Under the pieces are notes generated by a model, which was given only the letters and a program-made list of their open reading frames with translations, was not told where the DNA came from and did not search any database. The position numbers and the translations under genes are program-made. Source: Arthrobacter sp. MYb214 (lineage in GTDB: Bacteria > Actinomycetota > Actinomycetes > Actinomycetales > Micrococcaceae). Taken from it: 64,000 bases of DNA. Shown here piece after piece: positions 15,270 through 57,936 of the stretch; position 1 is the stretch's first letter; each line of letters begins with the position of its first letter. The stretch covers positions 1-64,000 of the forward strand of contig NZ_PCPZ01000009.1 of assembly GCF_002979865.1 (NCBI RefSeq), in the 5' to 3' direction.

Positions 15270-16262
15270 GTGAAGCTATCTATTCTGGATCTTGCTCCGG
15301 TTGAACCCGGAACAACTATTTCCGACTCTTTCAAGTCCTCCGTCCGCTTGGCGCAAACTGCAGAACGCCATGGGTATGAACGCGTCTGGTACGCGGAACA
15401 CCACAATATGCCCACCATTGCTTCCAGCGCGACCTCGTTGCTGATCAGCCACATAGCCCACCACACCGAGAAGATTCGCCTCGGCTCGGGCGGCATCATG
15501 CTTCCGAACCACTCCCCTCTGGTGATCGCCGAGCAGTTCGGCACGTTGGCCGAAATCTACGGCGACCGCATCGATTTGGGCTTGGGCCGTGCACCGGGTA
15601 CCGACATGACCACCCTGCGTGCCTTGCGCCGCGACCCGTCGGCCGCCGATTCCTTCCCGCACGATGTGCTGGAGCTGCAGGCCTATCTCGCCGGCGAATC
15701 CAGGGTTCCTACCGTTCAGGCGACCCCGGGAGCAGGAACCAACGTTCCGCTGTACATCCTGGGCTCATCGCTCTTCGGTGCCAAGCTCGCCGCCCAGCTG
15801 GGACTGCCGTATTCCTTCGCCTCGCATTTCGCACCGGCTGCGCTGCATGAAGCGATCCGCATCTACCGCGAGGAGTTCACCCCCTCAGAGCAACTGGCTG
15901 AGCCGTATGTCATTGCCGGCGTAGGCGTGCTGGCTGCGGAAACGGCTGAACGAGCGCATGAACTGCTGGACGTTGCCAAGCGCCATCGCGTGGCAAGCTT
16001 CATCGGCCGTTCCGCGAAGAAGGAATTCACCGAAGCTGAGATCGATATGCTCATGGATACTCCGCAGGCGCAGCAGATTCTGGACATGATGCGCTACACC
16101 GCGGTGGGCACCGGAGAACAGGTTGCCGAATACCTGCGCCACTTCGCTTCGGCAGCGCAGGCAGATGAACTGATCACCATCCATTACCCCACCGAGGAGC
16201 ACGCTCGACTCGAATCGGTGATGATTACCGCCGAGGCCTGCCAGCTGGCTAGCGCCCGGTAA
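15270..16262 (+). CDS. LLM class flavin-dependent oxidoreductase (MsnO8-like)
   Basis: The 330-residue protein is a bacterial luciferase-like TIM barrel. Characteristic segments are [10 protein letters not shown] (about residues 40-49), [22 protein letters not shown] (about 69-90, quoted only as its pattern of G and P residues) and GLGRAPGTD (about 104-112). Such enzymes use reduced FMN or F420 to oxidise small organic substrates; the substrate here is unknown. The start is a GTG without ribosome site, so it could lie slightly elsewhere. The 3' end overlaps the convergent membrane protein gene by 14 nt. Confidence 0.88.
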
Positions 16263-16731
16263 TTCTGATCCAGCGCTTGGCTGCCATCAGCAGCAGCGCA
16301 ACCAGAGCGAGGGTCAAGCAGAATTCCACGCCAATATAGGCGTAATGCCATAGCGATCCGCCATCGGAGACTCCTGCAAGCACCGCATCGGTACGCGCAG
16401 AGAGGCCCGGGCGGATCGCTGCGGTTTTAATCAGCAGCAATAGGCCGACCAGCCCTACGCCCCAGCCCCAGGCCTTGCCGGCAGCGCGCTTGGCCGACCC
16501 GGCCACCAGGGCAATGAAGAAGATGATCTCGACCATGTTCATTGCGAAGAAGACGCGGCGTCCAATGCCCAGACCCAAGGGAATGGTGATTCCGGGTGCG
16601 GTGAATTTCAGTGGTGCCTCGATGAATGAAATGCCGATGATCAGGCCGAGCCACAGTGCAGGAATGTAGATGCGTGCAGCCACGGCCCACTGAGCGCCGC
16701 GGCTAGCAGGCGCTGGAAGGGGACTAGTCAT
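16249..16731 (-). CDS. Hypothetical four-helix membrane protein
   Basis: The 160-residue product has four predicted membrane helices (about 22-42, 60-80, 88-105 and 127-150). I do not recognise the family with certainty; it resembles short DUF-type integral membrane proteins of actinobacteria. GGAGG lies immediately before the ATG with only 1-nt spacing. The gene begins 21 nt downstream of the MFS gene on the same strand, and its end overlaps the LLM gene. Confidence 0.7.
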
Positions 16732-16752
16732 GCCTCCACAGTTCGCCCGGTT

Positions 16753-17967
16753 CTAGCGTGCTTTGCGCAGTCCTGCCAGTGCCCAGACGGCTAGCACTGC
16801 CGCCACCACGGCGCAGCCGATGGAGAAGACCAGGATGCTCTGCTGCTGCCCGAAGACCCCGACGGCCCAGCCCAGCGCGATGACTGGAACAGCACTGCCC
16901 AGGTAGGTCACCAGGTATATGGTGGACACGGTTTGGGCGTGCTGCTTGTCGTTGACCGCGTCCACCGCTTGAGCGAAGGCAGTGCGGAAGGCCATGCCCT
17001 GGCCCAGCCCCACGAATACCAATGCCGCGATGGCCCATGGCAGCTGGCGATGCTCGGCAGCTACGGCCAGCACTACGGTGGAGGCCGCCATCAATCCCAG
17101 ACCGATAGGCAGCAAGGCCTTGCCGCCGCGCACGACCAGCTGCGACAGGGCGGATATGCCCAATGGCAGGCCGGCAATCAGGCCAATGACCAGCACCGAA
17201 TCCAGGCCAAAGGCTTGGGCGAAGTACCCAGGTGCCAAGGACAGCACGAAGCCGAAGATGGCGAAGCTCAAGAAGCCGACGAGGGCAGCGAGCCAGAACG
17301 GTGCCCGGGCCGAGCTGGGGACGCCCAAGCGGCGTGGGGCCAGTGCCTTGCTTCGCTGGCCGCGCTCAGCCAGCGCAATGGCCGGACGGGCCTGCAGTGT
17401 GCTCAACGGGACCAGGACCAGCAGCAGCAAGAACGCCTGCACCATGAACACGGTAGTGCGCCCGCCAGGCAGATGAGCCAGCAGCCCGCCCAAGACCGGT
17501 CCGAAGGCGACACCGCCCGATGAGGCCAAGAGGGTGAAGCGCGAAGCCCACTCAGGCCGCGCAGGAAGAAGTTCACGCAGGGCCGCGGCGCTAGCACCGG
17601 TAGCCAGCGCGACACCGGCGCCCTGCAAACCACGGCCAAGGCACAGTTCCAGAAGGTTGCCGGCCGATCCGAAGACCAGGGTTCCAGCGAAGGAAACAAC
17701 GACCGCGATCACCAGCGCCGCACGGCGTCCGATATGATCCGACCAATGCCCCACGGTGGAAAGGAAGAGCATCAGCGAACAGACGTAGCTGGCAAAGGCC
17801 ACGGTGGTTCCCATGGCGCCAAGGTGCAATTCGGATTGGAGTGCCGGATACAGCGGGGTGGCCAGGTTGGCTCCGACCAGCAGCAGGAAGCTGACGGACA
17901 CGGTGATCACCAGTCGAGCGGTCAGCCCGGGGTTCCAGGAGAGTACGCGATGGTTCATTGGCTGCAT
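16753..17967 (-). CDS. MFS transporter (DHA1-like)
   Basis: The protein has about 404 residues and 12 predicted helices. Motif A-like GHWSDHIGRRAALVIA follows helix 2, GRGLQGAGVALATG is helix 4, and SSGGVAFGPVLGGLLAHL has the motif C glycines of exporters. Export of a small molecule is likely; the substrate is unknown. The start is uncertain: ATG 17967 and ATG 17958 lack good ribosome sites, while GTG 17997 lies 10 nt after a TACTTT hexamer. It diverges from an Lrp-type regulator gene, a common arrangement for exporters controlled by the neighbour. Confidence 0.85.
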   Translation of the reverse strand: MQPMNHRVLSWNPGLTARLVITVSVSFLLLVGANLATPLYPALQSELHLGAMGTTVAFASYVCSLMLFLSTVGHWSDHIGRRAALVIAVVVSFAGTLVFGSAGNLLELCLGRGLQGAGVALATGASAAALRELLPARPEWASRFTLLASSGGVAFGPVLGGLLAHLPGGRTTVFMVQAFLLLLVLVPLSTLQARPAIALAERGQRSKALAPRRLGVPSSARAPFWLAALVGFLSFAIFGFVLSLAPGYFAQAFGLDSVLVIGLIAGLPLGISALSQLVVRGGKALLPIGLGLMAASTVVLAVAAEHRQLPWAIAALVFVGLGQGMAFRTAFAQAVDAVNDKQHAQTVSTIYLVTYLGSAVPVIALGWAVGVFGQQQSILVFSIGCAVVAAVLAVWALAGLRKAR

Positions 17968-18056
17968 GCGCAGCTCGCTGATAACCGACAAATTCACTCC
18001 CGGGATCAAAGTAGTCCAGACCAGCTGGGCACGAAGAATGCCCAGAAAGAGTTTTT

Positions 18057-45067: not shown

Positions 45068-47803
45068 TCAGGGCTGCTGCGCCGCGACCTGTTCCAGGGC
45101 TTCGCAGGTGAACACCTGGTAGCCCAGATCCTGGTGGTAACCGTGGATTTCGCGGGTGTCCAATCGGTCCATGTAATCCAGAATGCATATGGTAATGACC
45201 TGGCCGGGGACCAGCACCGGGAATCCCGGCGGGTACGGGGTGACGAATACCGCCGACACGACGCGTTCTCCGTTCACCAGCTGGGTGCGGATCTGCGCGG
45301 AGGACAGGAAATGCGTCGCCGGGTCCTGGTAGGTCAGGTAGTAGGCCGAGCGCATGTCCCCGCTTCCACCGCCTCCTGCGAATTCAGGAGCGAAGGCGCT
45401 GAAGTCCGGCAAGGGAATCTGTTCGGCCGCGGGCTTCTTGCCCAGCGCCAGCACTCTCCCATCCAGGCGGCGTTTGCGGTCCAGTTCCTCCGCGATCTTC
45501 ACCAGCACCTCGATCAGGTGCGCCACGGCCGAACGGGTGGTGCCGATATTGGTCATCAGCAGCACCGAGGTGCGGCTGGTCTTGTTGACCTGGATCGAAT
45601 GCCCATCCATCAGGTACTCGTGCTTGAACGTGTCCCCGTCCACGCCGGTGCGGCTGATGTCCAAGGTCAGGCGTGAGGGGTCGACCACGAACTCGTCTTC
45701 TGCCCAGGCTTCGTCCCAGGCTGCCAGCCCGTCGCGCACCGGGTTCTGCGTGGTGGACCGGCGGTACTTCTGCGGGATCAGGTCCGTCGAGTGCAGGATC
45801 TTGAAATACTTGCCCAGCAGCTCGTTGCGCGCCATGGCCCGCGAAATCGACTGCGCCAAATCGACCTGGCGCTGCACCAGCGCATAGCCTTCCAGCTCGG
45901 CCTGGCGCCGGCCGATATCCAGCGAGGCGAGGATCTGGTAGTTCGGCGAGGTGGAGGTGTGGGTCATGTAGGCCTCGCGGAAGGCGTTGAGGTTGCGCAC
46001 CGCGAAGTCCTGGTCGTAGATGTGGATCATCGAGCCCTGACGCAAGGAGGTCAGAGTCTTATGCGTGGACTGGGTGGAATACACTCGCAGACGGACCTGC
46101 TCCGGATCCGGAATCAACCGGGTGTCCAGCCAGGCCTGGTCATTCTCCGGGTGCTCGATGGTGCCCGGTGCTGGAAGGGCCGCACGCTGCGTGGAGTAGC
46201 GCTGGTGGTAATCCGCGGTTTCCAGCTGCTTTTCCAGCACGGCCGCCACGGTCATGGCGGTGCGCTGGCGGTACACCGGGTGGAATCCTGCGAAGGCGAA
46301 CCAGGCCTCGTCCCAGAGGAACACCAGATCCGGCTTGATGGCCAGGCATTCTTCCATCACCCGGCGCGGGTCGTAGATGATCCCGTCGAAGGTGCAGTTG
46401 GTCAAGGTCAGCATCTTGACCTTGTGCAGCAGGCCCTCGCGGCGCAGCTGCAGCAGCCGTCCCTTGATCTCCTCCAGCGGCACCGCCCCGTACATCGAAT
46501 GCTCGTTGAGCGGGTAGGCCTCCAGGTAGCTGACGTTCGCCCCGGCGAGCACCAGCGAGTAGTGGTGGGACTTGTGGCAGTTGCGGTCCACCAGCACGAT
46601 GTCCCCCGGAGCGAGAATCGACTGGTGCACGATCTTGTTGGCGGTCGACGTGCCATTGGTGACGAAGTAGGTGCGGTGGCTGCCAAAAGCCCGGGCCGCC
46701 AGCTCGTGGGCCTTCTTGATGGAACTTTGCGGGTCCAGGAGGGAATCGAGCCCGCCGGAGGTGGCCGAGGTTTCGGCCAGCAGCAGGTTCTTGCCATAGA
46801 AGTCCACCAGGTCCCTGGCCCATGGGGAGTTCTGCACCGAACCTGCACGGGAAATCGGCATGGCGTGGAAAACCCCGCCAGGCCGCTTGGCGTACTTCTG
46901 CAGCGCGTTGAAGAACGGGGTCTGGTAGCGTTCGAGCACTTCCGAGACAATCGACAGGTGCAGATCCATCCGGTCATTGCGCGAGAAGATCCGGCGGAAA
47001 CGCCCGGTGATCTCGTGGGCAATCGATTCCAGGGCGACCCCGGCGATCAGGTACACCGGGACTTCAGGGCGCAGTTCATCGAGGATGTTTTCCAGATCCA
47101 GCAGGCCCTGGATCTGCCTAGTGGATTGGAAATAGCCTTCCATCCGCCGGGCAATGAAATTCTTGAGCGTCGAGGATAGCCGGCGGCGCGTGCGCACATC
47201 AAAGCGGGCGGTGAGCACGACGGACTGGATGCCGGGATTGATCAGGATCGCGGCCAAGGCATCTTCCACGCTGGGCACCACCACGAAGTTGTAGTGGAAC
47301 GGATCGGTGCGCTGGCGCTGTTCGGCGATTTCTTCCTTGAAAAGCTCAATCTCCTCCGCCGGGCCATTATCCACCAGCAGGATTTCCACCATCGGTGCCT
47401 GCACCCTGGCGTTGCCAGGTGCACCGTTACCCAGCTGGGATGGATCCTGTTCCGCCTCGTCATGGCCTTCAAGGTCAATGTACTGGGTCAGCGTCCTGAA
47501 GGTCTGGTTCGCTTGGTAGACCAGCTTCATGGCATCTTCGTACTGCCCGCCGGACATGAGCCGGGAAACCTCGTTGAAGTATTCGATGCCGGGATTCGCC
47601 CAGTACGGTTCTATGGCTGCCAGCAGCCCCAGCAACCGGCCGGCCTCCAGTTCGTGCTCCGTGCGGCGGTCTTCCTCCTGGTATTCAGAAGAGATCTCGC
47701 TGAGCACATAGCCCAAGTGCTCCCACGCGTCCTTGCGTTTGCGCCACGCGCTTTCAGGCGTAGCCGTTCCCTGGTTCGTCCCGTAGGTCAACCTCTTGCT
47801 CAC
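45068..47803 (-). CDS. Orn/Lys/Arg decarboxylase class III-type PLP enzyme
   Basis: The protein of about 911 residues has an N-terminal wing-like region (about 130-300), the PLP-binding large domain (about 300-690) and the C-terminal Orn/Lys/Arg decarboxylase domain (about 750-900). STHKTLTSLRQGSMI contains the Schiff-base lysine, FLWDEAWFAFAGFHP the PLP-ring aspartate, and TNGTSTANKIV the phosphate site. It makes a polyamine (agmatine, cadaverine or putrescine) and CO2; which one cannot be told. GTG 47803 has AAAGGA 11 nt upstream; a GTG seven codons earlier is the alternative. Confidence 0.9.
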   Translation of the reverse strand: MSKRLTYGTNQGTATPESAWRKRKDAWEHLGYVLSEISSEYQEEDRRTEHELEAGRLLGLLAAIEPYWANPGIEYFNEVSRLMSGGQYEDAMKLVYQANQTFRTLTQYIDLEGHDEAEQDPSQLGNGAPGNARVQAPMVEILLVDNGPAEEIELFKEEIAEQRQRTDPFHYNFVVVPSVEDALAAILINPGIQSVVLTARFDVRTRRRLSSTLKNFIARRMEGYFQSTRQIQGLLDLENILDELRPEVPVYLIAGVALESIAHEITGRFRRIFSRNDRMDLHLSIVSEVLERYQTPFFNALQKYAKRPGGVFHAMPISRAGSVQNSPWARDLVDFYGKNLLLAETSATSGGLDSLLDPQSSIKKAHELAARAFGSHRTYFVTNGTSTANKIVHQSILAPGDIVLVDRNCHKSHHYSLVLAGANVSYLEAYPLNEHSMYGAVPLEEIKGRLLQLRREGLLHKVKMLTLTNCTFDGIIYDPRRVMEECLAIKPDLVFLWDEAWFAFAGFHPVYRQRTAMTVAAVLEKQLETADYHQRYSTQRAALPAPGTIEHPENDQAWLDTRLIPDPEQVRLRVYSTQSTHKTLTSLRQGSMIHIYDQDFAVRNLNAFREAYMTHTSTSPNYQILASLDIGRRQAELEGYALVQRQVDLAQSISRAMARNELLGKYFKILHSTDLIPQKYRRSTTQNPVRDGLAAWDEAWAEDEFVVDPSRLTLDISRTGVDGDTFKHEYLMDGHSIQVNKTSRTSVLLMTNIGTTRSAVAHLIEVLVKIAEELDRKRRLDGRVLALGKKPAAEQIPLPDFSAFAPEFAGGGGSGDMRSAYYLTYQDPATHFLSSAQIRTQLVNGERVVSAVFVTPYPPGFPVLVPGQVITICILDYMDRLDTREIHGYHQDLGYQVFTCEALEQVAAQQP

Positions 47804-48063
47804 GGTTGCCGGTATTCCTTTCACCCCTGCAGCGTTAACTGGTTGTTAACAGCGCGAGCGAAGCCATGCCGCCCGGTATCGTGAGACTATGCCACTTCCG
47901 AAGCGGTTCCGAACCCTTGAGGCGATATTACGCATTATTATCGCCTTTCGGCGAAGTGTTCACTTGCCGTTCACCTTCCTGGGCCCAGCGGCGAACAGCG
48001 GCCAAAGACGAGTTGGACTCCAGTTGAATTCTGGTGCTGCACGACGCGGTTTCCTGGTCTGGT
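47804..48063. promoter_or_regulatory. Upstream region of the decarboxylase gene with two inverted repeats
   Basis: GTTAAC occurs at 47834-47839 and 47845-47850. GGCGATA (47921-47927) pairs with TATCGCC (47939-47945) around an AT-rich centre, and CGCC/GGCG forms a small hairpin next to it. The AT-rich dyad looks like an operator. No convincing gene lies here; a short rightward frame at 47889-48074 has no ribosome site. Confidence 0.45.
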
Positions 48064-49005
48064 TCAGCTACTGATCAGCCGCCCACCGCGTTTGCGGGCG
48101 CTAACCACCAGAGAGGCCTTAACTTGCAGCATCGAGTTCCCCCAGGCGCTGTGGGAAATGAAGTCATAGAGCTCGGCCTGGTTGGCCACCGTCACGTCGA
48201 CCACCAACTGGCAATCCCCGGCCACGGCCGCTGCATAGCGAACTTCCGGTCGGGTGGCGAGTCGCTGGCCCAATTTTTCGACTTGGGATGGCGTCGTCGA
48301 AACCCAGAGCAATGCCTCGACCGGCAACCCCACGGCCAGGGGCTCAACCAGGGCGCGAATGGCGATCTGCCCGGTGGATAGGAGCCAATCGATCCGCCGC
48401 GCAACAGAGGTCTCGCTCATCGCCACCCGGCGGGCAATCGACTCGAAGCTGGCTCTGCCGTCATCGTGCAAAGCATCGATGATCTGCTCGTCCTTGGAGT
48501 TGAGGTTCGGCTGGATGCGCCAGCTCGTGACATCCGGGTCCTTTTGCAAGGCAAGCTCTTCTGCGGGCTTCAAGGATCCCAGGCGCCACCCGCGGATCGT
48601 CTTGAAGTACTTCAACACCGGATACACGACAATCGACGAGACCCCCGGCGTAGCAGGCAGTTCCAGGGAGAGCACTTCGGTCACATCTCCGTTGTAGTGC
48701 ATTTCCACGACGAGATCCTCCCGGCCAGTGACCTGGTAGGAAAAGCTGGTATCCGGCCGGGAAGACAAGGATTCACTGGCAATCCGCCCGGTGCCCGGGG
48801 CGCAAGTGCACGCGATCAGCAGCGAATGCTCGCGGTGGCGGATCGCTGCAACCGTAACCAGCCCATTCTCCAGCAACCACGCGCCATGGCGGGCGACCGA
48901 GCGTTCAGGCAGGTCAAGCACGGCAGCTATCTTCCGCCAGGTGGCTCGCCCGTCCACTTGGAGGGCGGCAATGATGCGGCGTTGCACCGTGCTCAGCTCG
49001 ATCAT
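48064..49005 (-). CDS. Lrp/AsnC regulator with two tandem helix-turn-helix units
   Basis: The 313-residue protein has two Lrp-like halves: HTH about 8-50 (ATWRKIAAVLDLPERSVARH) and about 175-220 (ASFESIARRVAMSETSVARRIDWL), with RAM-like segments about 65-140 and 235-305. Such doubled regulators are typical of actinobacteria and normally control adjacent catabolic genes. ATG 49005 has AGAGGA 4 nt upstream; an ATG at 49026 overlaps the stop of the carboxyltransferase gene (ATGA) but has no ribosome site. It is the last gene of the amidase/CoA-transferase/carboxyltransferase unit. Confidence 0.9.
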   Translation of the reverse strand: MIELSTVQRRIIAALQVDGRATWRKIAAVLDLPERSVARHGAWLLENGLVTVAAIRHREHSLLIACTCAPGTGRIASESLSSRPDTSFSYQVTGREDLVVEMHYNGDVTEVLSLELPATPGVSSIVVYPVLKYFKTIRGWRLGSLKPAEELALQKDPDVTSWRIQPNLNSKDEQIIDALHDDGRASFESIARRVAMSETSVARRIDWLLSTGQIAIRALVEPLAVGLPVEALLWVSTTPSQVEKLGQRLATRPEVRYAAAVAGDCQLVVDVTVANQAELYDFISHSAWGNSMLQVKASLVVSARKRGGRLISS

Positions 49006-49022
49006 CCGTTCCTCTGTTCTAG

Positions 49023-50579
49023 TCATCCAGCGGCGTCCCGCACCTCCTGGTTGGCCGTTTTCGGCCGGCCAATCGATGCATACTTCAGCGCGCGCCGGCC
49101 AGGCAGCTGCGCGGCATCTGTCGCCGCAAGCTGCGCAAGCGCCGTGGACACTGCCGCTCCGATTTCCAGCGAGAAGCGCTTCGGAGCGGTGGTCACATCA
49201 TACTCCTCGGGGACGATCACCTGTACTATCCCCGCACGTCGCAGCGAGTATGCATCGGTTTTCTGGGCATAAGCCAACGGTGCGGCGTGCTCCGTGTCCC
49301 GGTACATGATCGCGCTGGCTCCCTCCGGCGGCAACGGGGAGAGCCAGGAGTTTGCTGCGGCTATGGAGATATCAGCCGGCAGCAAGGCAAGTGCGCCGCC
49401 TCCGGTGCCCTGGCCCAGCAGCAGCGAAACGCTCGGAACGCCAATGCCCACCAAGGTGCTCAGCGAGCGGGCAATCTGCCCGGCCATGCCGCCTTCCTCG
49501 GCCTCACGGCTCAGCGCCGCTCCTTCGGTGTCGATCACGGTGAGCATCGCTATGCCCAGATTCTGTGCCAGCAGCGCCCCCCTCCGGGCTTCGCGCAGGA
49601 AGGCAGGCCCCAGCGGATCGAGGTTTTCGGAGTGGTCTATCCGCGACCGGTCCTGGCCGATGACCACCGCCGGCTGGCCCCCGATGCGCGCGAGCGCCAG
49701 GTACATCCGCGGATCGCTTTCCCCTTCGGTGCTCCCGGAAAGCTGCAACGCATCGCTGGCGGCGTACTTGATGACGTGGCGCACCGAGGGGCGTCGGGAT
49801 TTGCGCGTGGCGAGTATGGCATCCCACACCTGGGATTCGGTGAGTCTCCGGTCATCTGCCAAGGGGTAGCCGGCAATCGAGTCGATCAGATCTCCCGGGG
49901 CGATGATTGCAAGCACCCGGTTGACCAGCCCGCCCAGCTCATGGACCGGGACCACGGCGTCGATCAGCCCGTGCTTGTGGAGATTCTCGGAGACTTGCAC
50001 TCCCTGCGGGAAGGGTTTGCCGTAGATGGTCTCGTACACGCGCGGACCAAGGAATCCCAGCAGGGCACCGGGCTGTGCGATGGTGATGTGCCCGGTGGAT
50101 CCCCACGACGCCATAACCCCTCCGGTGGTGGGATGCCGCAGGTACACCAGGTATGGCAACCCGGCAGCAGAATGCGCCCTAACCGCGGCCGTGATGTGCA
50201 CCATCGACACGAACGCAGGGGTTCCCTCCTGCATCCGGGTTCCGCCCGAGGCCGGGGAAGCCAGTACCGGCAGTCCCAATGCGGCGGCTTTTTCGAATGC
50301 CGAAGCAATCCTGCGGGAGGTGCCCTGGCCAATTGATCCGGCCAGGAATCCGAATTCGGAGAGGACGACGGCCACTTTGCGGCCATTGATTGTGCCGGAT
50401 CCGGTCAGTACCGCTTCGTCGGCCCCAGAACGGCGCGCGGCTTCTTCCAGCTGGGCCCGGTAGGCGTCATCGGCAAAAGAATAATCCGCCGGCTCATCCC
50501 AGCTCTCGAAGCTGCCCACATCGAGCACCTGGTCGATCATGTGCTGTGCACTGATGTGCTCGATTTTCTCCTGCACCAT
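49023..50579 (-). CDS. Fused acyl-CoA carboxyltransferase (AccD-AccA-like)
   Basis: The 518-residue protein has a beta-subunit-like carboxyltransferase half (about 50-250: GSIGQGTSRRIASAFEKA, LPVLASPASGGTRMQEG, YLRHPTTGGVMASW) and an alpha-like half (about 270-480: DTEGAALSREAEEGGMAGQIA, LLLGQGTGGGALALLPADI, SPLPPEGASAIMYRD). Both crotonase-type acyl-CoA sites are present. The N-terminal zinc finger of AccD is missing and no biotin carboxylase or biotin carrier gene is nearby. The enzyme could use the housekeeping biotinyl protein, or act in a decarboxylase. It starts 2 nt after the CoA-transferase stop (TGAGTATG). Confidence 0.88.
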   Translation of the reverse strand: MVQEKIEHISAQHMIDQVLDVGSFESWDEPADYSFADDAYRAQLEEAARRSGADEAVLTGSGTINGRKVAVVLSEFGFLAGSIGQGTSRRIASAFEKAAALGLPVLASPASGGTRMQEGTPAFVSMVHITAAVRAHSAAGLPYLVYLRHPTTGGVMASWGSTGHITIAQPGALLGFLGPRVYETIYGKPFPQGVQVSENLHKHGLIDAVVPVHELGGLVNRVLAIIAPGDLIDSIAGYPLADDRRLTESQVWDAILATRKSRRPSVRHVIKYAASDALQLSGSTEGESDPRMYLALARIGGQPAVVIGQDRSRIDHSENLDPLGPAFLREARRGALLAQNLGIAMLTVIDTEGAALSREAEEGGMAGQIARSLSTLVGIGVPSVSLLLGQGTGGGALALLPADISIAAANSWLSPLPPEGASAIMYRDTEHAAPLAYAQKTDAYSLRRAGIVQVIVPEEYDVTTAPKRFSLEIGAAVSTALAQLAATDAAQLPGRRALKYASIGRPKTANQEVRDAAG

Positions 50580-50581
50580 AC

Positions 50582-51778
50582 TCAACGCACCGCCTGCTGC
50601 GCGCGGGTCTTGAGCCATTCCCGGATCCGCTGCTCGTCATGGTTCAGCAGTGGCGGAGCGGAGTGCCCGGTCCGGGTGACTTCCTTGCCGCCCTCGAAGA
50701 ACCGCAGCGGCGCGCCTGGGAGAGTCAGCTCCCCTAGCAACGGGTGCTGGACATTCAATGCCAGGCCTTGCGAGCGCACCTGGTCCCATTCGTACACCTC
50801 ATCCAGGGTTCTGACGATGCCGGCAGGGACGCCGGCTTCACCGAGCATTTCCAGCAGCTGGCTGGTACCGTGGCGCTTGAACTTTTCTTCGATGGCTTCG
50901 ATGAGCTCGTCACGCCGTTCGACGCGATGCTCATTGGTTTCGAACCCCTCGGTTGGCAGCTGGAATGCCGCCACCAGTGAATCCCAGAGCTTCGGGCTGC
51001 CCACGCTAATTTGCACAAAGCCATCGGCGCTGCGGAACAGTCCATAGGGCGCGATGGATGGATGGTGGTTGCCCTGGGCGCGCGGAACCTGTCCTGCAAC
51101 CGTGCTGCGGGTGCCCTGAAAGGCATGCACTCCGATGATCGATGCGAGCAGCGAGGTGCGCACATGCTGGCCTCTGCCCGTGCGCTCGCGTTCCAGCAGG
51201 GCCGCCAGCACGCCGTAGGATCCATACATCCCGGCCAGCAGGTCTCCGATGGGAACGCCGACTTTCTGCGGGTCCTCCGGTCCGGAACCGGTCAGCGACA
51301 TCAGCCCGGCCTCGCCCTGCAGAATCTGGTCGTATCCGCTGCGCCAGGCTTCAGGGCCGTCATGGCCGAAGCCGGAAATCGAGAGGGTCACGAGCTTTCC
51401 GTTAATCATCTGCAGGGCTGCATCGTCGAAGCCGAGCCGGTCCAGCACTCCGGGGCGGAAATTCTCTACCAGGACATCGGCCTGCGTCAGCAGGCTGCGC
51501 AGGGTCTGGATTCCGTCGGGGCTCTTCAGATCCAGGGCAATGGATTCCTTGTTGCGGTTGCACGAGAGGAAATAGGTCGATTGGCGGTCCTCCTCCGGCC
51601 CGACGAAGGGCGGACCCCAGCCTCGGGTGTCATCGCCGCCCTGGATATTTTCCACCTTGATTACTCGGGCTCCCAGATCGCCAAGCATCATCGTGGCATG
51701 CGGTCCAGCCAAGGCCCGCGACAAGTCGATGACGGTGTACCCGGACAGCGGTCCGGTGCTGTGCTGTTCCTTGTTCAT
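50582..51778 (-). CDS. CaiB/BaiF family III CoA-transferase
   Basis: The 398-residue protein shows VIDLSRALAGPHATMMLGDLGA at the N-terminus, RNKESIALDLKS, VENFRPGVLDRLG and the catalytic Asp179 in GVPIGDLLAG. Family III enzymes move CoA from a donor acyl-CoA to a carboxylic acid, so this enzyme probably activates the acid released by the neighbouring amidase. GAGAGG lies 5 nt before the ATG. It is tightly linked to the carboxyltransferase gene. Confidence 0.93.
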   Translation of the reverse strand: MNKEQHSTGPLSGYTVIDLSRALAGPHATMMLGDLGARVIKVENIQGGDDTRGWGPPFVGPEEDRQSTYFLSCNRNKESIALDLKSPDGIQTLRSLLTQADVLVENFRPGVLDRLGFDDAALQMINGKLVTLSISGFGHDGPEAWRSGYDQILQGEAGLMSLTGSGPEDPQKVGVPIGDLLAGMYGSYGVLAALLERERTGRGQHVRTSLLASIIGVHAFQGTRSTVAGQVPRAQGNHHPSIAPYGLFRSADGFVQISVGSPKLWDSLVAAFQLPTEGFETNEHRVERRDELIEAIEEKFKRHGTSQLLEMLGEAGVPAGIVRTLDEVYEWDQVRSQGLALNVQHPLLGELTLPGAPLRFFEGGKEVTRTGHSAPPLLNHDEQRIREWLKTRAQQAVR

Positions 51779-51802
51779 ATTTGCCTCTCTAGAATTCCGG
51801 TA

Positions 51803-53257
51803 TCAGGCGCTGGCGGTCTTGACTGCATTGACGGCCACCGACTGCGGATCAGTGGCCAGAACCGGCATCACGTCCGCGAAGCGGTTCTGCTCCTCGTAGC
51901 CGGCAGCCCAATTGAGCAGCTGGGCGTCCTTGTAGTGATTCGCCGCCAGCTGCCATCCCACCGGAAGCCCGGACTCGGTGAAGCCTCCTGGCATGGCGAT
52001 GACCGGCAGGCTCGTGGCCGAGAGCAGGCAGGCAGATCGCATCCAGTCCAGATAGGTCTCGGCGCGGGTTCCAGCGATTTGCTCAGGCCAGCGCTGCGCT
52101 GCGTCGAAGGGCAAGACCTGGGTTGCCGGGGAGAGGAACAGATCGTAGCGCGAGAAGTAGCGCTGAACTGCTCGTTCCAGCCGGGTTCGGGCCGCCATCG
52201 TCGAAATCATGGCTTCTCCGTCGAGGTCCGTCCCCTTCTTGACATTCCAGAGGACCTCGGGCTTGATCAGCGAGCCGTGGCTCCGCACTAGTCCGCCAAG
52301 ATTAGTGGCGAAATCGAAGGCCCTGGTGTTGCCGAAGACTTCGTCGGCATCGGTAAAGTCAATGCACGCCTCTTCGACAATTGCGCCAGCGGCCTCGAAA
52401 ACCGAGAGTTGGCGATGCAATACCTCTACGACCTCGCGCTCGATCGGAACACCGATCCCGAAATCGAAGCTATAGCCGATGCGGACTCCGCGCAATTCTG
52501 GTTCGGGAGTGCCGAAGTCGCTGGCTGAGAGCTTGTTCGGGGTCGGAAGCCTGTCGTCACCTGCGCTGGCTCGCATGAACAGCGCGATATCCTCCACTGT
52601 GCGTGCGATCGGTCCCGAACGGGCCAGCCAGGAGTAGGCATTGGATTCCGCCTCCAGCGGGATGACCCCGTAGGAGGGCCGGAAACCAATGACATTGCAG
52701 AAACTGGCCGGAATGCGCAGCGAACCGCCCATGTCTGAGCCGTCACCGAGCGGCTGGATCCTAGCGGCGACCGCGGCGGCTACGCCGCCTGAGGAGCCTC
52801 CTGCCGATCGATCCACCGCATAGGGATTCGTCGTGGTGCCGAACAATTCATTGAAGGTATGCGATCCGGCTCCGAATTCCGGGACATTGGTCTTCCCCGT
52901 CCTGATCGCGCCTGCTGCTGCCAGTCGGGCGATCTGCAAGTCGTCCTGCTCTGGGACGTTGTCCTTTAATGCCAGCGACCCCTGGGTGGACAGCAAGCCG
53001 GCGGTGTTGAACGTGTCCTTGTGCGTCATCGGCAGACCGTGGAGCACTCCAGTCGGCTCGTTTCCCGCCGTGGCTTCATCGGCCTTAGCAGCGAGGATTC
53101 GCGCGCGTTCGAAATCCGTGATGACCACGGCGTTGATTTGGGCGTTAACTTCATCGATTGCCTGGATATGGCTCTCCAAGGCCTCACGCGCCGACAACTC
53201 GCGGTTGCGGATCTTTGCCGTGAGCTCCGTGGCGCTCAATTGCTGGATCTCGTTCAT
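51803..53257 (-). CDS. Amidase signature family amidase
   Basis: The 484-residue protein has the complete catalytic triad of the amidase signature family: Lys80 (LPMTHKD), cis-Ser155 (SAGGSSGG) and nucleophile Ser179 (GDGSDMGGSLR). It hydrolyses a carboxamide to an acid plus ammonia or an amine. It is the first gene of a leftward unit with a CoA-transferase and carboxyltransferase, with AAAGG about 8 nt before the ATG. GatA is unlikely because gatB and gatC are absent and the length and context differ. Confidence 0.93.
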   Translation of the reverse strand: MNEIQQLSATELTAKIRNRELSAREALESHIQAIDEVNAQINAVVITDFERARILAAKADEATAGNEPTGVLHGLPMTHKDTFNTAGLLSTQGSLALKDNVPEQDDLQIARLAAAGAIRTGKTNVPEFGAGSHTFNELFGTTTNPYAVDRSAGGSSGGVAAAVAARIQPLGDGSDMGGSLRIPASFCNVIGFRPSYGVIPLEAESNAYSWLARSGPIARTVEDIALFMRASAGDDRLPTPNKLSASDFGTPEPELRGVRIGYSFDFGIGVPIEREVVEVLHRQLSVFEAAGAIVEEACIDFTDADEVFGNTRAFDFATNLGGLVRSHGSLIKPEVLWNVKKGTDLDGEAMISTMAARTRLERAVQRYFSRYDLFLSPATQVLPFDAAQRWPEQIAGTRAETYLDWMRSACLLSATSLPVIAMPGGFTESGLPVGWQLAANHYKDAQLLNWAAGYEEQNRFADVMPVLATDPQSVAVNAVKTASA

Positions 53258-53480
53258 GGCCGTGCCTTTCTAAAGGATGACTGCATTGCGATATGTGTCA
53301 CAATCTTCCGTCTACGTTGACCGCAAATGGAATACTCCTCAAGAAAACTCGCCATTTTGGGGGATCTCGCCAAAAATATGGCTAATTCCGACATTTCTTG
53401 CCGAACGCCTCCAATAGGAGGAACCTTGAATTCAATGAGACCGGCATCACATCATGCTGGTGAATATCGAAGGAGTACCG

Positions 53481-54221
53481 ATGCATTTCCCCCTTGCAGC
53501 CGGCGATCCAGTTTCAACTGACATCTGGGCCGTCGCCAACAGCCCTTTCCTGTGGTTCTGCGCTCTGGGCGTCTTCGCCGTGATCTTCGTCCAGACCATT
53601 CTCTATGTCCGTGCTGCCAAGGCCGCAGCACCCCATGTCGATATGCCCGTCCGCGAAGTCAAGGAAGCCTTCCGTGCCGGTGCCGTCGCCTCGATCGGGC
53701 CATCCCTCTCGGTGGTGCTGGTCGCCATCGCATTGCTGGCTCTGTTCGGAACGCCAGCCGTTCTTGTCCGCATCGGGCTGATCGGCTCGGCCTCCACGGA
53801 AACGGCCAGCGCCAACTTGGCAGCCCAATCCATGGGCTCGATGCTCGGCGGGGATACCTACACCCAACAAGTTTTCGCCGTGGCCTTCATGGCCATGAGC
53901 CTATCGGGAGGCATGTGGATGCTCTGCACCTTGCTGCTGACCCCGGTCCTGAAGCGCGGCGGCAAGTCCTTGGCCAAGCGCAACCCAGCGGCCATGGCCC
54001 TGATCCCCACCGCAGCCCTGCTCGGAGCGTTCAGCATGCTGACCATCGCCGAAATTCCCAAGTCCAGCATCCACATGACGCTGGTGCTGATCTCGGCAGC
54101 CTCCATGGCTTTGTTCCTCTTCTTGGCCAAAGTGCTCCAAGCCAAATGGCTCAAGGAATGGGCCTTGGGATTCGCGATCCTGATCTCGATCACCGCCGGC
54201 TACCTGATGCACACCGCATAG
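53481..54221 (+). CDS. Integral membrane protein, DUF5058-like
   Basis: The 246-residue protein has about seven predicted helices. The segment AFRAGAVASIGPSLSVVLVAIALLALFGTP (Gly-Pro-Ser in helix 2) and RIGLIGSASTET recall the uncharacterised DUF5058 family. ATG 53481 is preceded by AAGGAG with 5-nt spacing. It is followed after 22 nt by a second membrane protein and then an M20 hydrolase, so it is probably half of a transporter for that hydrolase's substrate. The function is not established. Confidence 0.75.
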   Translation: MHFPLAAGDPVSTDIWAVANSPFLWFCALGVFAVIFVQTILYVRAAKAAAPHVDMPVREVKEAFRAGAVASIGPSLSVVLVAIALLALFGTPAVLVRIGLIGSASTETASANLAAQSMGSMLGGDTYTQQVFAVAFMAMSLSGGMWMLCTLLLTPVLKRGGKSLAKRNPAAMALIPTAALLGAFSMLTIAEIPKSSIHMTLVLISAASMALFLFLAKVLQAKWLKEWALGFAILISITAGYLMHTA

Positions 54222-54243
54222 CGAATTAGAAAGGACAGAACCC

Positions 54244-54963
54244 ATGAGCTCACCAGCAATGACCACTGCGGACGCCTCGATGGCCCGCTTCGAGCAGCAG
54301 ACCACACGCTACGGTTCACTGACCATGACAGCCGGCTTGATCCTCTCGCTGCTCGGCCCGATCTACCTCGTATTCTTCACGGACCTCGACATCAGCCCTT
54401 CGATGATCTGGGTCGCCTTCGCCGCCGTCGCGGCCACCTTCGGAATTTTCTGGTTTGTCGAACCACTGACTTATTTCCCGATCCTGGGTTCGGCAGCTAT
54501 GTACCAGGCCTTCATGATCGGCAATATCTCCAACAAGCTGCTGCCTGCCGCCATCGTGGCCCAGTCCGCGATCAATGCCAAGCCCGGCACCAGGCGCGGC
54601 GATCTGGCCTCGGTGATGGCCATCGGCGGCGCGGCCACCGTCCACCTGACCAGCCTGCTGGTCTTCGTGGGGATCTTCGGGTCCTGGCTGGTCTCGATCA
54701 TTCCAAACGACATGATCGAGGTAGCCCGAATCTACATCTTGCCCTCCCTGATGGGAGCGGTACTTGTCCAGGCCATCGTCGCCATGAAGCAGGTTCGCCC
54801 GACCATAGTTGCCATCGTGCTGTCGCTGACCATGTATTTCGTGGTCATCCCGCTGGTTCCATCCTTGGCCCTGTTCGGCACAGCCCTGGTTGTGCTCTTC
54901 TCCATCATCGTTTCGTGGATCGTGCGCGATCGCAAAGCAGTCCACACGCCCGTTGCTGACTAA
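54244..54963 (+). CDS. Integral membrane protein, partner of the DUF5058-like protein
   Basis: The 239-residue protein has about six to seven predicted helices after a polar N-terminus of about 25 residues. The segment FPILGSAAMYQAFMIGNISNKLLPAAIVAQSA is well formed and carries conserved-looking Gly, Asn and Pro residues within helices, as in permeases. I do not recognise a named family. Its position between the DUF5058-like gene and the amidohydrolase suggests that both membrane proteins form one transporter. A ribosome site GAAAGGA lies before the ATG. Confidence 0.75.
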   Translation: MSSPAMTTADASMARFEQQTTRYGSLTMTAGLILSLLGPIYLVFFTDLDISPSMIWVAFAAVAATFGIFWFVEPLTYFPILGSAAMYQAFMIGNISNKLLPAAIVAQSAINAKPGTRRGDLASVMAIGGAATVHLTSLLVFVGIFGSWLVSIIPNDMIEVARIYILPSLMGAVLVQAIVAMKQVRPTIVAIVLSLTMYFVVIPLVPSLALFGTALVVLFSIIVSWIVRDRKAVHTPVAD

Positions 54964-54973
54964 AGGAGTCACT

Positions 54974-56200
54974 TTGAATACCCAACCCTCTGGCGCATTG
55001 CAAACCGTCCTGACTGGCGAGCAAGCCGAGCTCATGCACGAAATGTATCGCCACCTGCATGCCAATCCCGAACTGTCCATGCAGGAACGCGCGACCGCCG
55101 CTTATATCGGCAAGCAACTCGACACCATGGGAATCGAGAACTTCGTCTGCGGCGGTACCGGCGTCGTCGGCATCCAACGCAATGGCGAGGGGCCTGTGGT
55201 AGGCTTCCGCGCCGATACCGATGGCCTGCCCATCGCGGAAGATACCGGAGCCAGTTATGCTTCGGAAGCTCGCGGCCAGCTGGCCGATGGCACTGACGTC
55301 CCGGTCATGCACGGATGCGGTCACGACACCCATGTCACCGCGGCGCTGACCGCCGCTGCCCGGCTCGCCGAGCAGACGGGGGCGTGGAACGGAACCATCG
55401 TGTGGATTTTCCAGCCCGGCGAGGAAACCAGCGCTGGTGCCAGGGCCATGCTCGAAGACGGACTGTGGGACAAGGCCCCGGTACCCTCGGTCATCCTCGG
55501 CCAGCATGTCTTTCCTTTCGCCGCGGGCTCGGTGGGCCTGACCAGCGGCCCCGCCATGGCAATGGCTGATTCGCTGAAGGTGACGCTGCACGGCAAGCAG
55601 TCCCACGGCTCACAGCCGCAGGACTCCATCGACCCGATCGTCCAGGGCGCGCACACGATCACGCGCCTGCAGAGCCTGGTTTCGCGGGAATTGCACCCTC
55701 AGACTCCTGCGGTGCTCACCTGCGGCTCGTTCCACGCCGGGTTGAAGGAGAACATCATCCCGGATCGCGCCGAATTCACCTTGAACATCAGGACCTTCGA
55801 TGAGCAGACCCGCACCCAAATCCTGGATGGGGTCTCACGCATAGTGAGCGCCGAAGCCGCCGCGTCGAATGCTCCGGCACCTGAGATCGAAACGCTGAAT
55901 TCCTTCCCCAAGCTGCACAATGATCCGGGCCACACCGAGCAGGTCAAGGAGGCTTTGAGCCGGGAACTCGGGGAAGGCAAAGTTGTCGACCTGCCCGCTG
56001 CCATGGGATCCGAGGATTTCGGGGCTCTGGGAGATGAGATTTCGGTGCCGTACGTCTACTGGTTCTTCGGCGGGTTCCTGCCCCGTGACGAGGCGCCACC
56101 GGTGAACCACTCGCCGTATTTTCTGCCTGATTACGAGCTTTCCCTGGCAACAGGGGTTCGCGCCGCGCTGGCGGGCCTGGGGCATTACCTGGCCAGGTAG
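54974..56200 (+). CDS. M20 family amidohydrolase (hippurate/indoleacetyl-amino acid hydrolase-like)
   Basis: The 408-residue protein is a zinc-dependent M20D amidohydrolase. MHGCGHDTHVTAAL holds two metal ligands and the catalytic region, PGEETSAGARAMLEDGL the base Glu, and MGSEDFGAL the C-terminal ligand region. Such enzymes free amino acids from N-acyl conjugates. The start is TTG 54974, with a perfect AAAGGAG 5 nt upstream; no ATG or GTG fits. It follows the membrane protein by 10 nt and is clearly in the same operon. Confidence 0.9.
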   Translation: MNTQPSGALQTVLTGEQAELMHEMYRHLHANPELSMQERATAAYIGKQLDTMGIENFVCGGTGVVGIQRNGEGPVVGFRADTDGLPIAEDTGASYASEARGQLADGTDVPVMHGCGHDTHVTAALTAAARLAEQTGAWNGTIVWIFQPGEETSAGARAMLEDGLWDKAPVPSVILGQHVFPFAAGSVGLTSGPAMAMADSLKVTLHGKQSHGSQPQDSIDPIVQGAHTITRLQSLVSRELHPQTPAVLTCGSFHAGLKENIIPDRAEFTLNIRTFDEQTRTQILDGVSRIVSAEAAASNAPAPEIETLNSFPKLHNDPGHTEQVKEALSRELGEGKVVDLPAAMGSEDFGALGDEISVPYVYWFFGGFLPRDEAPPVNHSPYFLPDYELSLATGVRAALAGLGHYLAR

Positions 56201-56304: not shown

Positions 56305-57120
56305 CTATAGCCGGGTACGCCCATCGAGGTAGGCGCCGAGCACCTGCAGCACACCGTGCTCGAGGTTGGAAGGCGCGGTGAAGTTCGCAGCTTCTGCCAC
56401 CACCGGATGCGCATTGGCCATGGCGAAGGAGTAGGTGGCGGCCTTGATCATTTCCAGGTCATTGGGGTAGTCGCCGAAAACTGCCGTTTCATCCGCGCTG
56501 ATTCCCAGCTTGTCCTGCAAGGCTGCCAGGGCCAGTCCCTTGTGCACGCCGTGGTTCATGGCATCCACCCAGTGGCTGCCGGAGATCACCACCTGCAGCG
56601 GCACCTGCAGCGCTGCCGCCATTTCCTGCACGGCGCCGGTGCCGACGTTGACGGCCATCTTGATGATCTCGTCCTCGACCTGGGCCAGGTCGTCAACCAC
56701 CTGCACGGCGCGGTAGTACGGGGCCACGGCGTTGGCAAACCGTTCATCGGCGCGCTCCACATAGGCGGTGCGGCGTCCGCACAGCACCAATCCGGCGTCC
56801 AGCGCGGCTTGCCCGCGCACGGCCTGGATCACGGCGGCTACCGATGGCGGATCGATGATGTTGGAGTAGATCTCATTCTCGCCGTGCATCACGACGGTTC
56901 CGTTCTCGGCAATGATCGCGATCTCCCCCAAGGGGGCGAACTGCTCGCGCAGGGTCGCGAACTGGCGCCCGGAAGCTGGCACGAACTTGATGCCGCGGGC
57001 CTGGAGCTTGTCGATCACAGCCCACGATGCCTCGGGGATCTTGCCTTCGCCGTCCAGGAAAGTGCCGTCCATGTCGACGGCGACGAGCTTGATCTGGGCC
57101 TTCGGGTCAATCGTATGCAT
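56305..57120 (-). CDS. Cof-type HAD family hydrolase
   Basis: The 271-residue protein has HAD motif I VDMDGTFLD (Asp16/Asp18), motif II PASGRQ, a Lys in VHKGLAL and motif IV FGDYPNDLEMI, plus the C2 cap of Cof/YidA proteins. These enzymes dephosphorylate sugar phosphates and similar compounds. It lies 6 nt behind ppgK, sharing its transcript, with AGGA 4 nt before the ATG, so a sugar phosphate substrate is plausible. Confidence 0.93.
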   Translation of the reverse strand: MHTIDPKAQIKLVAVDMDGTFLDGEGKIPEASWAVIDKLQARGIKFVPASGRQFATLREQFAPLGEIAIIAENGTVVMHGENEIYSNIIDPPSVAAVIQAVRGQAALDAGLVLCGRRTAYVERADERFANAVAPYYRAVQVVDDLAQVEDEIIKMAVNVGTGAVQEMAAALQVPLQVVISGSHWVDAMNHGVHKGLALAALQDKLGISADETAVFGDYPNDLEMIKAATYSFAMANAHPVVAEAANFTAPSNLEHGVLQVLGAYLDGRTRL

Positions 57121-57126
57121 AGGTTC

Positions 57127-57936
57127 CTAGTTGCCGGGTTTCAGCGCGCGATGCGCAGCGCCCAGTACCCCGGCGGCGTTGTTGAATTGGGCAGGCACGA
57201 TCCTGGCTCGCAGTTCCAGCTGCGGCAGGAACTTTTCGTGGTCTTCGGAGATCGCTCCGCCGATGATGATCAAATCCGGGCTGCACAGGAATTCCACGTG
57301 GGACAGGTAGCGTTGCAGGCGGGCGATGTACTGCTCCCAGCTGAGGTTTTCCTCGTGCATGACTCGCGCGGCGGCCTTGCTCTCGGCATTGAATCCGTCG
57401 ATTTCGAGGTGGCCGAATTCGACATTCGGGAAGAGCACGCCGTCGCGGAAGAAGGCCGAGCCGATGCCCGTGCCCAGGGTCAGCAGCAAGGTGCTGCCCT
57501 TGACCGGCTTGCCATGTTCGGCTCCGGCACCCGCGTAGACCTCGGCCACGCCGGCGGCATCCGCGTCGTTGAGCACAAAGACGTCGCGGCCCAGGATCGC
57601 ACTGAAGGTGGCGGTGACGTCCAAGCCGATCCAGGCCTTGTCGATATTGGCCGCCGAGTGCACGACGCCGTCGATGACGATGCCAGGCACGGTGACGCCA
57701 GCGGGGATTCCTGCCAGCTCGTCGCCGGTGAGCTCCTGCAGGTCGGCAACGATGCCCGCCATCACCTGGGCGACAGCATCCGGATGCGCGCCCTCAGGGG
57801 TAGCTGCCTTGCTGAAGGTGCTCTCAACAAGCTTGCCGTCGGTCCCAACCAATCCGTACTTGATCGACGAGCCGCCCAGATCAAGCCCGATGGCAGCGAA
57901 CTGCGACGTGGATGCCGATGCGTCAGATGGTGCCAT
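57127..57936 (-). CDS. ppgK: Polyphosphate glucokinase
   Basis: The 269-residue ROK-family kinase phosphorylates glucose with polyphosphate or ATP. LGLDLGGSSIKYGLV is the phosphate-binding site, LNDADAAGVAE carries the catalytic Asp, LGTGIGSAFF is the second phosphate site and EFGHLEIDG plus AAARVMHEENLSW are characteristic of PpgK; the ROK zinc-finger is absent as expected. GGGGAG lies about 7 nt before the ATG. A well-formed promoter lies in the gap to the upstream ROK regulator gene. Confidence 0.95.
   Translation of the reverse strand: MAPSDASASTSQFAAIGLDLGGSSIKYGLVGTDGKLVESTFSKAATPEGAHPDAVAQVMAGIVADLQELTGDELAGIPAGVTVPGIVIDGVVHSAANIDKAWIGLDVTATFSAILGRDVFVLNDADAAGVAEVYAGAGAEHGKPVKGSTLLLTLGTGIGSAFFRDGVLFPNVEFGHLEIDGFNAESKAAARVMHEENLSWEQYIARLQRYLSHVEFLCSPDLIIIGGAISEDHEKFLPQLELRARIVPAQFNNAAGVLGAAHRALKPGN

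Follow-up and report, generated by a model that had tools for sequence, protein, structure and literature searches.

Two described malonate systems come closest to the subject of this report, a seven-gene locus in a 64,000-nucleotide stretch of the Arthrobacter sp. MYb214 genome (contig NZ_PCPZ01000009.1, positions 1 to 64,000; hereafter the window). The Rhizobium malonate operon matABC, for malonyl-CoA decarboxylase (MCD), MatB and MatC, takes malonate to acetyl-CoA. The malonate decarboxylase Mdc (MdcABCDE) is biotin-independent and joins a transferase to a carboxyltransferase-like decarboxylase, with an acyl carrier protein, according to a published account (PMC5534430). Two further likenesses concern E. 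coli YjiH-YjiG-IadA, in which two small membrane proteins are followed by an amide hydrolase, and the solved structure of N-alpha-acyl-glutamine aminoacylase (PDB 6slf). The locus itself lies at 48064-56200 and encodes a membrane protein of family DUF5058, a second membrane protein of no named family (hereafter the partner), an M20 amidohydrolase, an amidase, a family III CoA-transferase (CoAT), a fused AccD-AccA-type carboxyltransferase (CT) and an Lrp/AsnC-type regulator.

The system encoded here is real and conserved, and can be interpreted in part. With moderate confidence, we propose that it serves the catabolism of an imported malonyl-type amide, from which malonate would be released, made into malonyl-CoA by the CoAT and decarboxylated without biotin by the CT. 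The best guess for the substrate is an N-malonyl or malonamoyl amino acid, which DUF5058 and its partner may import as a two-subunit secondary carrier. The M20 hydrolase and the amidase, whose enzyme classes follow from homology, would cleave amide bonds inside the cell to give malonate together with either an amino acid or ammonia; the CoAT would then transfer CoA from acetyl-CoA to malonate, and the CT would turn malonyl-CoA back into acetyl-CoA by decarboxylation. The net conversion suggested by genome context would be of malonate to acetate and CO2, requiring neither biotin nor a dedicated acyl carrier protein, while the tandem-Lrp protein would sense the freed amino acid and control the divergent promoters. 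The original prediction, made from the sequence alone, had the hydrolases release an acid for the CoAT to activate and the CT to process; our analyses refine that outline, in that the acid is most likely malonate and the CT then probably decarboxylating. No description of such a pathway was found among the titles and abstract openings covered, and other papers, subscription ones included, may hold one.

Were the proposal correct, it would give DUF5058 and its unnamed partner, for which our searches found no role, their first function, move an 'acetyl-CoA carboxylase'-like actinobacterial gene pair away from fatty acid synthesis to malonate use, and indicate malonyl amides as a soil nutrient. 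What is new about the system is the carrier pair together with the reassignment of the carboxyltransferase. The likeness to matABC is that a MatC-type carrier lies beside standalone homologues of CoAT and CT; here, however, CoAT and an AccDA-like protein stand in place of MatB and MCD, and the membrane genes of the locus are the DUF5058 pair only. With Mdc it shares a transferase plus a carboxyltransferase-like decarboxylase, and the same cycle is proposed here on CoA, whereas Mdc employs a family-I-like transferase and an acyl carrier protein in place of a family III CoAT. An Mdc system at this locus was considered and rejected, MdcA and its acyl carrier protein being absent among the seven genes.

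Organisation of the locus

All seven predicted genes are present in two divergent arms, on the strands expected and with matches to the families assigned to them. The leftward arm (minus strand) comprises the amidase-signature hydrolase (51803-53257; Pfam Amidase, 2.8e-94), the CoAT (50582-51778; CoA_transf_3, 2.5e-112), the 531-residue CT (49023-50618; Carboxyl_trans, 1.2e-50; ACCA, 5.4e-41) and the regulator (48064-49026). The last had been called a tandem-Lrp protein, and it does contain two AsnC-type helix-turn-helix stretches (HTH_AsnC-type, 1.9e-18), although only one Lrp ligand-binding stretch scores in Pfam (AsnC_trans_reg, 6.7e-12). The rightward arm (plus strand) comprises the genes for DUF5058 (53481-54221; PF16481, 1.4e-65), the adjoining partner (54244-54963) and the M20 hydrolase (54974-56200). 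The DUF5058 reading frame opens at 53454, and we prefer the start at 53481 that matches those of its closest relatives; the M20 frame opens at 54890, and its preferred start is a TTG at 54974, behind AAAGGAG and 10 bases past the preceding stop. Within either arm, genes overlap or are separated by 10 to 24 bases.

The amidase start and the preferred DUF5058 start bound a divergent intergenic region of 223 bases (53258-53480), a putative shared control region for both arms. It holds one imperfect 17-nt inverted repeat; for the two nearest relatives no repeat was reported, and a search of the gap for sigma-70-like and terminator-like sites found neither.

Evidence on malonate as the probable released acid

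Among 58 related genomes, CT homologues were found at 22 places (E<=1e-60), four with DUF5058 and 18 standalone, one of the latter in the window's own genome. A MatC_N permease lies within about 4 kb of the standalone CoAT/CT at 15 of these 18 places (with E near 1e-60 for the four that were scanned), and 12 of 15 fetched standalone loci adjoin a regulator gene of a single family, GntR-FCD where scanned. A Rhizobium homologue of this MatC, 53% identical, adjoins MCD and an AMP-binding enzyme, the matABC layout. In Arthrobacter mobilis a MatC-CoAT-CT unit directly abuts the Lrp/amidase/DUF5058 cluster, and in a Yaniella metagenome-assembled genome (MAG) an MCD-CoAT-MadL-MadM operon stands beside two DUF5058 pairs. 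Because the CoAT/CT pair elsewhere belongs to a MatC-family unit, the acid is most likely malonate, which is the best-supported candidate and is not proven. MCD itself (PF05292) was matched once in the 58 relatives and not at all in the window's genome, which sets the locus apart from a matABC operon.

The distribution of CT was then compared with that of the amidase in 50 DUF5058 genomes outside Glutamicibacter that lack a local CoAT/CT pair (4 of 54 were left out). CT is encoded away from the locus in 20 of 33 amidase-bearing genomes and 1 of 17 without the amidase; when MCD is counted alongside CT, the figures become 23 of 33 and 2 of 17 (Fisher p 0.0002 in each case, shared descent being ignored). 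Four of the 50 have MCD, and CT is absent from all four; three of them carry the amidase, the MCD of one being that of the Yaniella operon itself. Within Glutamicibacter, CT is present in 6/6 amidase-bearing and 6/12 amidase-lacking genomes (p 0.054), and across the rows of the DUF5058 tree 41 of 55 with the amidase have CT in the genome, against 10 of 35 without.

Several observations weigh against malonate. MatC is missing at three of the 18 standalone places (G036, G040 and G057), from the stretches read around more distant CoAT/CT copies on Rhodococcus and Nonomuraea plasmids, and, together with CoAT, from that around a Tsukamurella plasmid CT; MatC-family carriers might, moreover, accept other dicarboxylates. 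One of the four MCD genomes lacks the amidase, five of ten amidase-lacking Glutamicibacter genomes with DUF5058 carry a standalone CT, and ten of the 33 amidase-bearing genomes have neither CT nor MCD, none of those ten having MdcA over cut-off. When descent is controlled, the comparison of amidase with CT is left with three supported independent pairs, with which a sign test cannot reach 0.05. In 37 related genomes, a set to which the window's genome does not belong, MdcA was never found over cut-off, with five weak partial matches.

Malonate would also be the product if the amidase were a ureidomalonase, so that the locus completed oxidative pyrimidine breakdown from barbiturate to malonate and urea. 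That route does yield malonate (PMC3758960), and G008, a genome that has the whole cluster, shows a barbiturase-family match. We nevertheless consider this explanation highly improbable: the search for barbiturase (PF09663) gave no match in the window's own genome and matches in only 3 of the 37 amidase-bearing genomes covered, and the M20 hydrolase would be left without a role.

CoA-transferase and carboxyltransferase

The CoAT carries the expected Asp motif. From its genome context we propose that it is a malonate CoA-transferase. Copies linked to DUF5058 and standalone copies are interleaved in a CoAT tree of 39 rows, in which at least two changes are forced by supported branches.

AccD and AccA are the closest PDB chains to the CT. 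The window copy has no Cys at all, and CxxC is absent from 40/40 extracted copies (a few places having been fetched twice); within 6 kb of CT, a biotin-type motif occurs at one of 40 places, in a short antisense open reading frame. The combination expected of an acetyl-CoA carboxylase, an AccD zinc motif plus a nearby biotin carrier, is thus not seen, a result that concerns nearby genes and is compatible with a distant carrier. If the acid is malonate, the CT probably decarboxylates malonyl-CoA. It might instead be a carboxylase subunit that pairs with a biotinylated alpha chain of housekeeping type and acts on some acyl-CoA that is not malonyl-CoA, as its AccD-AccA-like sequence and the distant copies outside MatC units would allow; the missing CxxC, the want of any convincing biotin-carrier motif nearby, the MatC context of the standalone pairs and the fact that CT and MCD never occur together in the 50 genomes all make this distinctly unlikely.

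Hydrolases

The M20 protein, of N-acyl-amino-acid hydrolase type, scores 271.8 bits against TIGR01891 (curated cut-off 153.75) and has the metal-site motifs of the family. Its nearest PDB chain is the N-alpha-acyl-glutamine aminoacylase 6slf (7.2e-79) from Corynebacterium, a likeness of sequence that does not imply the same acyl or amino acid specificity. Because this is the nearest solved relative, the core of membrane pair and M20 hydrolase looks like a system for N-acyl amino acid uptake plus hydrolysis. The amidase has the Lys, GGSSGG and cis-Ser motifs of the amidase signature in addition to its Pfam match, and its nearest NCBIfam model is PRK07486 (425 bits, under the cut-off of 465). 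The presence of both enzymes counts against the simplest form of our proposal, in that an N-malonyl amino acid would not need two hydrolases; both would be accounted for if the substrates were malonamoyl amino acids, or if one importer served two substrates.

A gene for a hydantoinase/carbamoylase-type M20 protein lies near DUF5058 in 12 of the 80 stretches described below (L072, L075-L078, L081, L083, L086, L091, L097, L101 and L106), the family being named for two; the copy in L072 reaches 488 bits, where the ErtE model has its cut-off at 520. Its recurrence fits a modular amide-degrading toolkit.

The membrane pair

The first membrane protein belongs to DUF5058 (221.5 bits against the PF16481 cut-off of 28.2, with nearly the whole profile covered), a family whose Pfam entry carries no function and whose name was not found in any of the papers searched. 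The partner matches nothing in Pfam at E<=1 or in NCBIfam at E<=0.01, and when 14 partner sequences were scanned against Pfam at E<=10 every family appeared in at most four, the best E being 0.0022. Conserved motifs are nonetheless evident among 101 extracted partner copies, P-x-LG in 99 and GNI[SG] in 83. Each membrane protein shows six hydropathy peaks, and homology between the two is not detectable; sequence and profile searches of the PDB with both gave nothing, or chance matches at E 3.3 or worse. The pair had been predicted to be of uncharacterised type, and the searches linked it to no characterised transporter family; what changes is that the first protein has a named family, the second none. 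Neither matches the MadL or MadM profiles at E<=1, which sets them apart from the malonate transporters of that type; true MadL and MadM matches are present in L068.

The YjiH-YjiG arrangement is nonetheless a close analogue: in four of five annotated loci read, a gene for an amide hydrolase (IadA or M20) comes after the two membrane genes, and one lacks an adjacent hydrolase. In two of these loci (L138, Serratia; L139, Salinivibrio) the YjiH-YjiG Gate pair is followed by an M20 hydrolase instead of IadA. Kinship of the DUF5058 pair with the Gate family (PF07670, which includes YjiH and YjiG) was also considered. A P-x-LG...N motif is common to the partner and YjiH, but no Gate match appears at E<=1, and the best hhalign profile score of 22.8 falls within the null from 60 shuffles (mean 16.4, standard deviation 2.7, maximum 25.2), being 2.4 standard deviations above the mean; the kinship was therefore rejected.

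DUF5058 is sporadic, with matches in 4 of 396 phylum-wide genomes (three over cut-off, the window's own included) as against 20 of 58 close relatives. We regard DUF5058 and its partner as a putative two-subunit secondary carrier that would import the amide. A wider claim, which we advance only tentatively, is that the two represent a novel class of carrier, composed of two subunits and extending from actinobacteria to haloarchaea, whose substrates are N-acyl amino acids (N-malonyl ones in this locus), and that the linked CoAT/AccDA-like pair is an undescribed malonate decarboxylase, free of biotin and carrier protein, that replaces MatAB or Mdc in many Micrococcales.

Conservation and modularity across genomes

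Scanning a genome collection with a DUF5058 alignment confirmed 233 relatives, and the 80 best among them were retained as loci; neighbours were counted within 7 kb of DUF5058 at an identity of at least 35%. By their record titles the loci are actinobacterial in all cases except L101; the latter, recorded as Vibrio cholerae 35D, carries a DUF5058 cluster of actinobacterial type, and its label looks wrong. The partner is present in all 80 and directly adjoins DUF5058 in the locus maps, followed in frequency by M20 (74), amidase (52), Lrp (51), CoAT (18) and CT (17). For one of the six loci without M20 (L088), the stretch ends there. The CoAT/CT pair stands beside DUF5058 in 17 loci, all with the amidase, while the amidase occurs without the pair in 35, and 28 have neither. 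Hence the membrane pair and M20 constitute a wider core, to which the amidase and CoAT/CT are optional modules. One of the 28 (L104) has a MatC-like permease (39% identity) together with a CoAT that belongs to a different subfamily. These two genes lie at 13831-16426 of L104, near the DUF5058 trio; the CoAT is nearest to that of Yaniella (49%), and neither CT nor MCD was found there.

The two arms had been proposed to form one pathway, an idea that would have fallen if they did not co-occur in other genomes; among the 80 loci they do co-occur, in several genera and in three gene orders. The pair lies between Lrp and amidase in a divergent arrangement in Glutamicibacter and Paeniglutamicibacter antarcticus; on the same strand downstream of M20 or the partner in Leucobacter, Paenarthrobacter, Kocuria polaris, the MAG L064 and the StoSoilB13 plasmid (where the partner and CT are frame-broken); and upstream of Lrp in Arthrobacter mobilis. 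The single pathway of the original prediction therefore survives in the co-occurrence of its arms but not as an obligate seven-gene set, since 28 of 80 loci lack the amidase and 63 lack CoAT/CT, and one plasmid has no membrane pair. On the DUF5058 tree (95 rows), the pattern needs 11 changes for the CoAT/CT pair and 7 for the amidase.

This modularity lends itself to a different account, in which the membrane pair and M20 are a general uptake-and-cleavage system for N-acyl amino acids or dipeptides (N-acyl-glycine in haloarchaea), and amidase, CoAT and CT a separate amide-to-malonate pathway that shares the regulator and neighbourhood in some Micrococcales. The trio of DUF5058, partner and M20 does occur without the other genes on one Paracoccus plasmid and on five haloarchaeal plasmids (five read of six matched), and 26 of the 80 loci have the trio without amidase or CT (16 the trio only, 9 with Lrp and 1 with a CoAT of another subfamily). 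Glycine-cleavage or lipoyl genes lie near the trio on four of the five haloarchaeal plasmids, which we count in favour of our own proposal. Conversely, plasmid pYJN5-2 of Paenarthrobacter sp. YJN-5 (L132, typed as conjugative) carries Lrp, amidase, M20, CoAT and CT without the membrane pair, which speaks against our single-pathway proposal. So does L064, which combines the membrane pair with amidase, CoAT and CT yet lacks M20, and the tree offers little help, for the amidase differs in about one of seven supported independent row pairs that differ in CoAT-CT. L064 is at the same time awkward for two separate pathways, because CoAT-CT there comes straight after the partner gene, without an intervening M20, and the reassembly of both arms in three orders across several genera is likewise hard to reconcile with separation. 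On balance we judge two separate pathways unlikely, and retain the malonyl-amide pathway as the preferred reading of the full cluster.

Genomic setting and other observations

Both membrane genes were also found on a Vibrio plasmid among transposases, the first apparently broken. In several Glutamicibacter genomes, the slot between the genes at 45068-47824 (minus strand) and 56305-57936 (minus strand) varies in content, holding the core only, the core plus amidase, or all seven genes; its flanks are a gene for a 918-residue decarboxylase-like protein and HAD/glucokinase-like genes. In a genome of the same genus (G005, locus L018), a distance of about 12 kb separates two DUF5058 clusters, of which one is limited to the core and Lrp and the other holds all seven genes. 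Elsewhere in the window, AT skew is high (0.249) at 16001-18000, where the minus strand encodes a long and hydrophobic protein that resembles the major facilitator superfamily (MFS), so the skew is probably ordinary.

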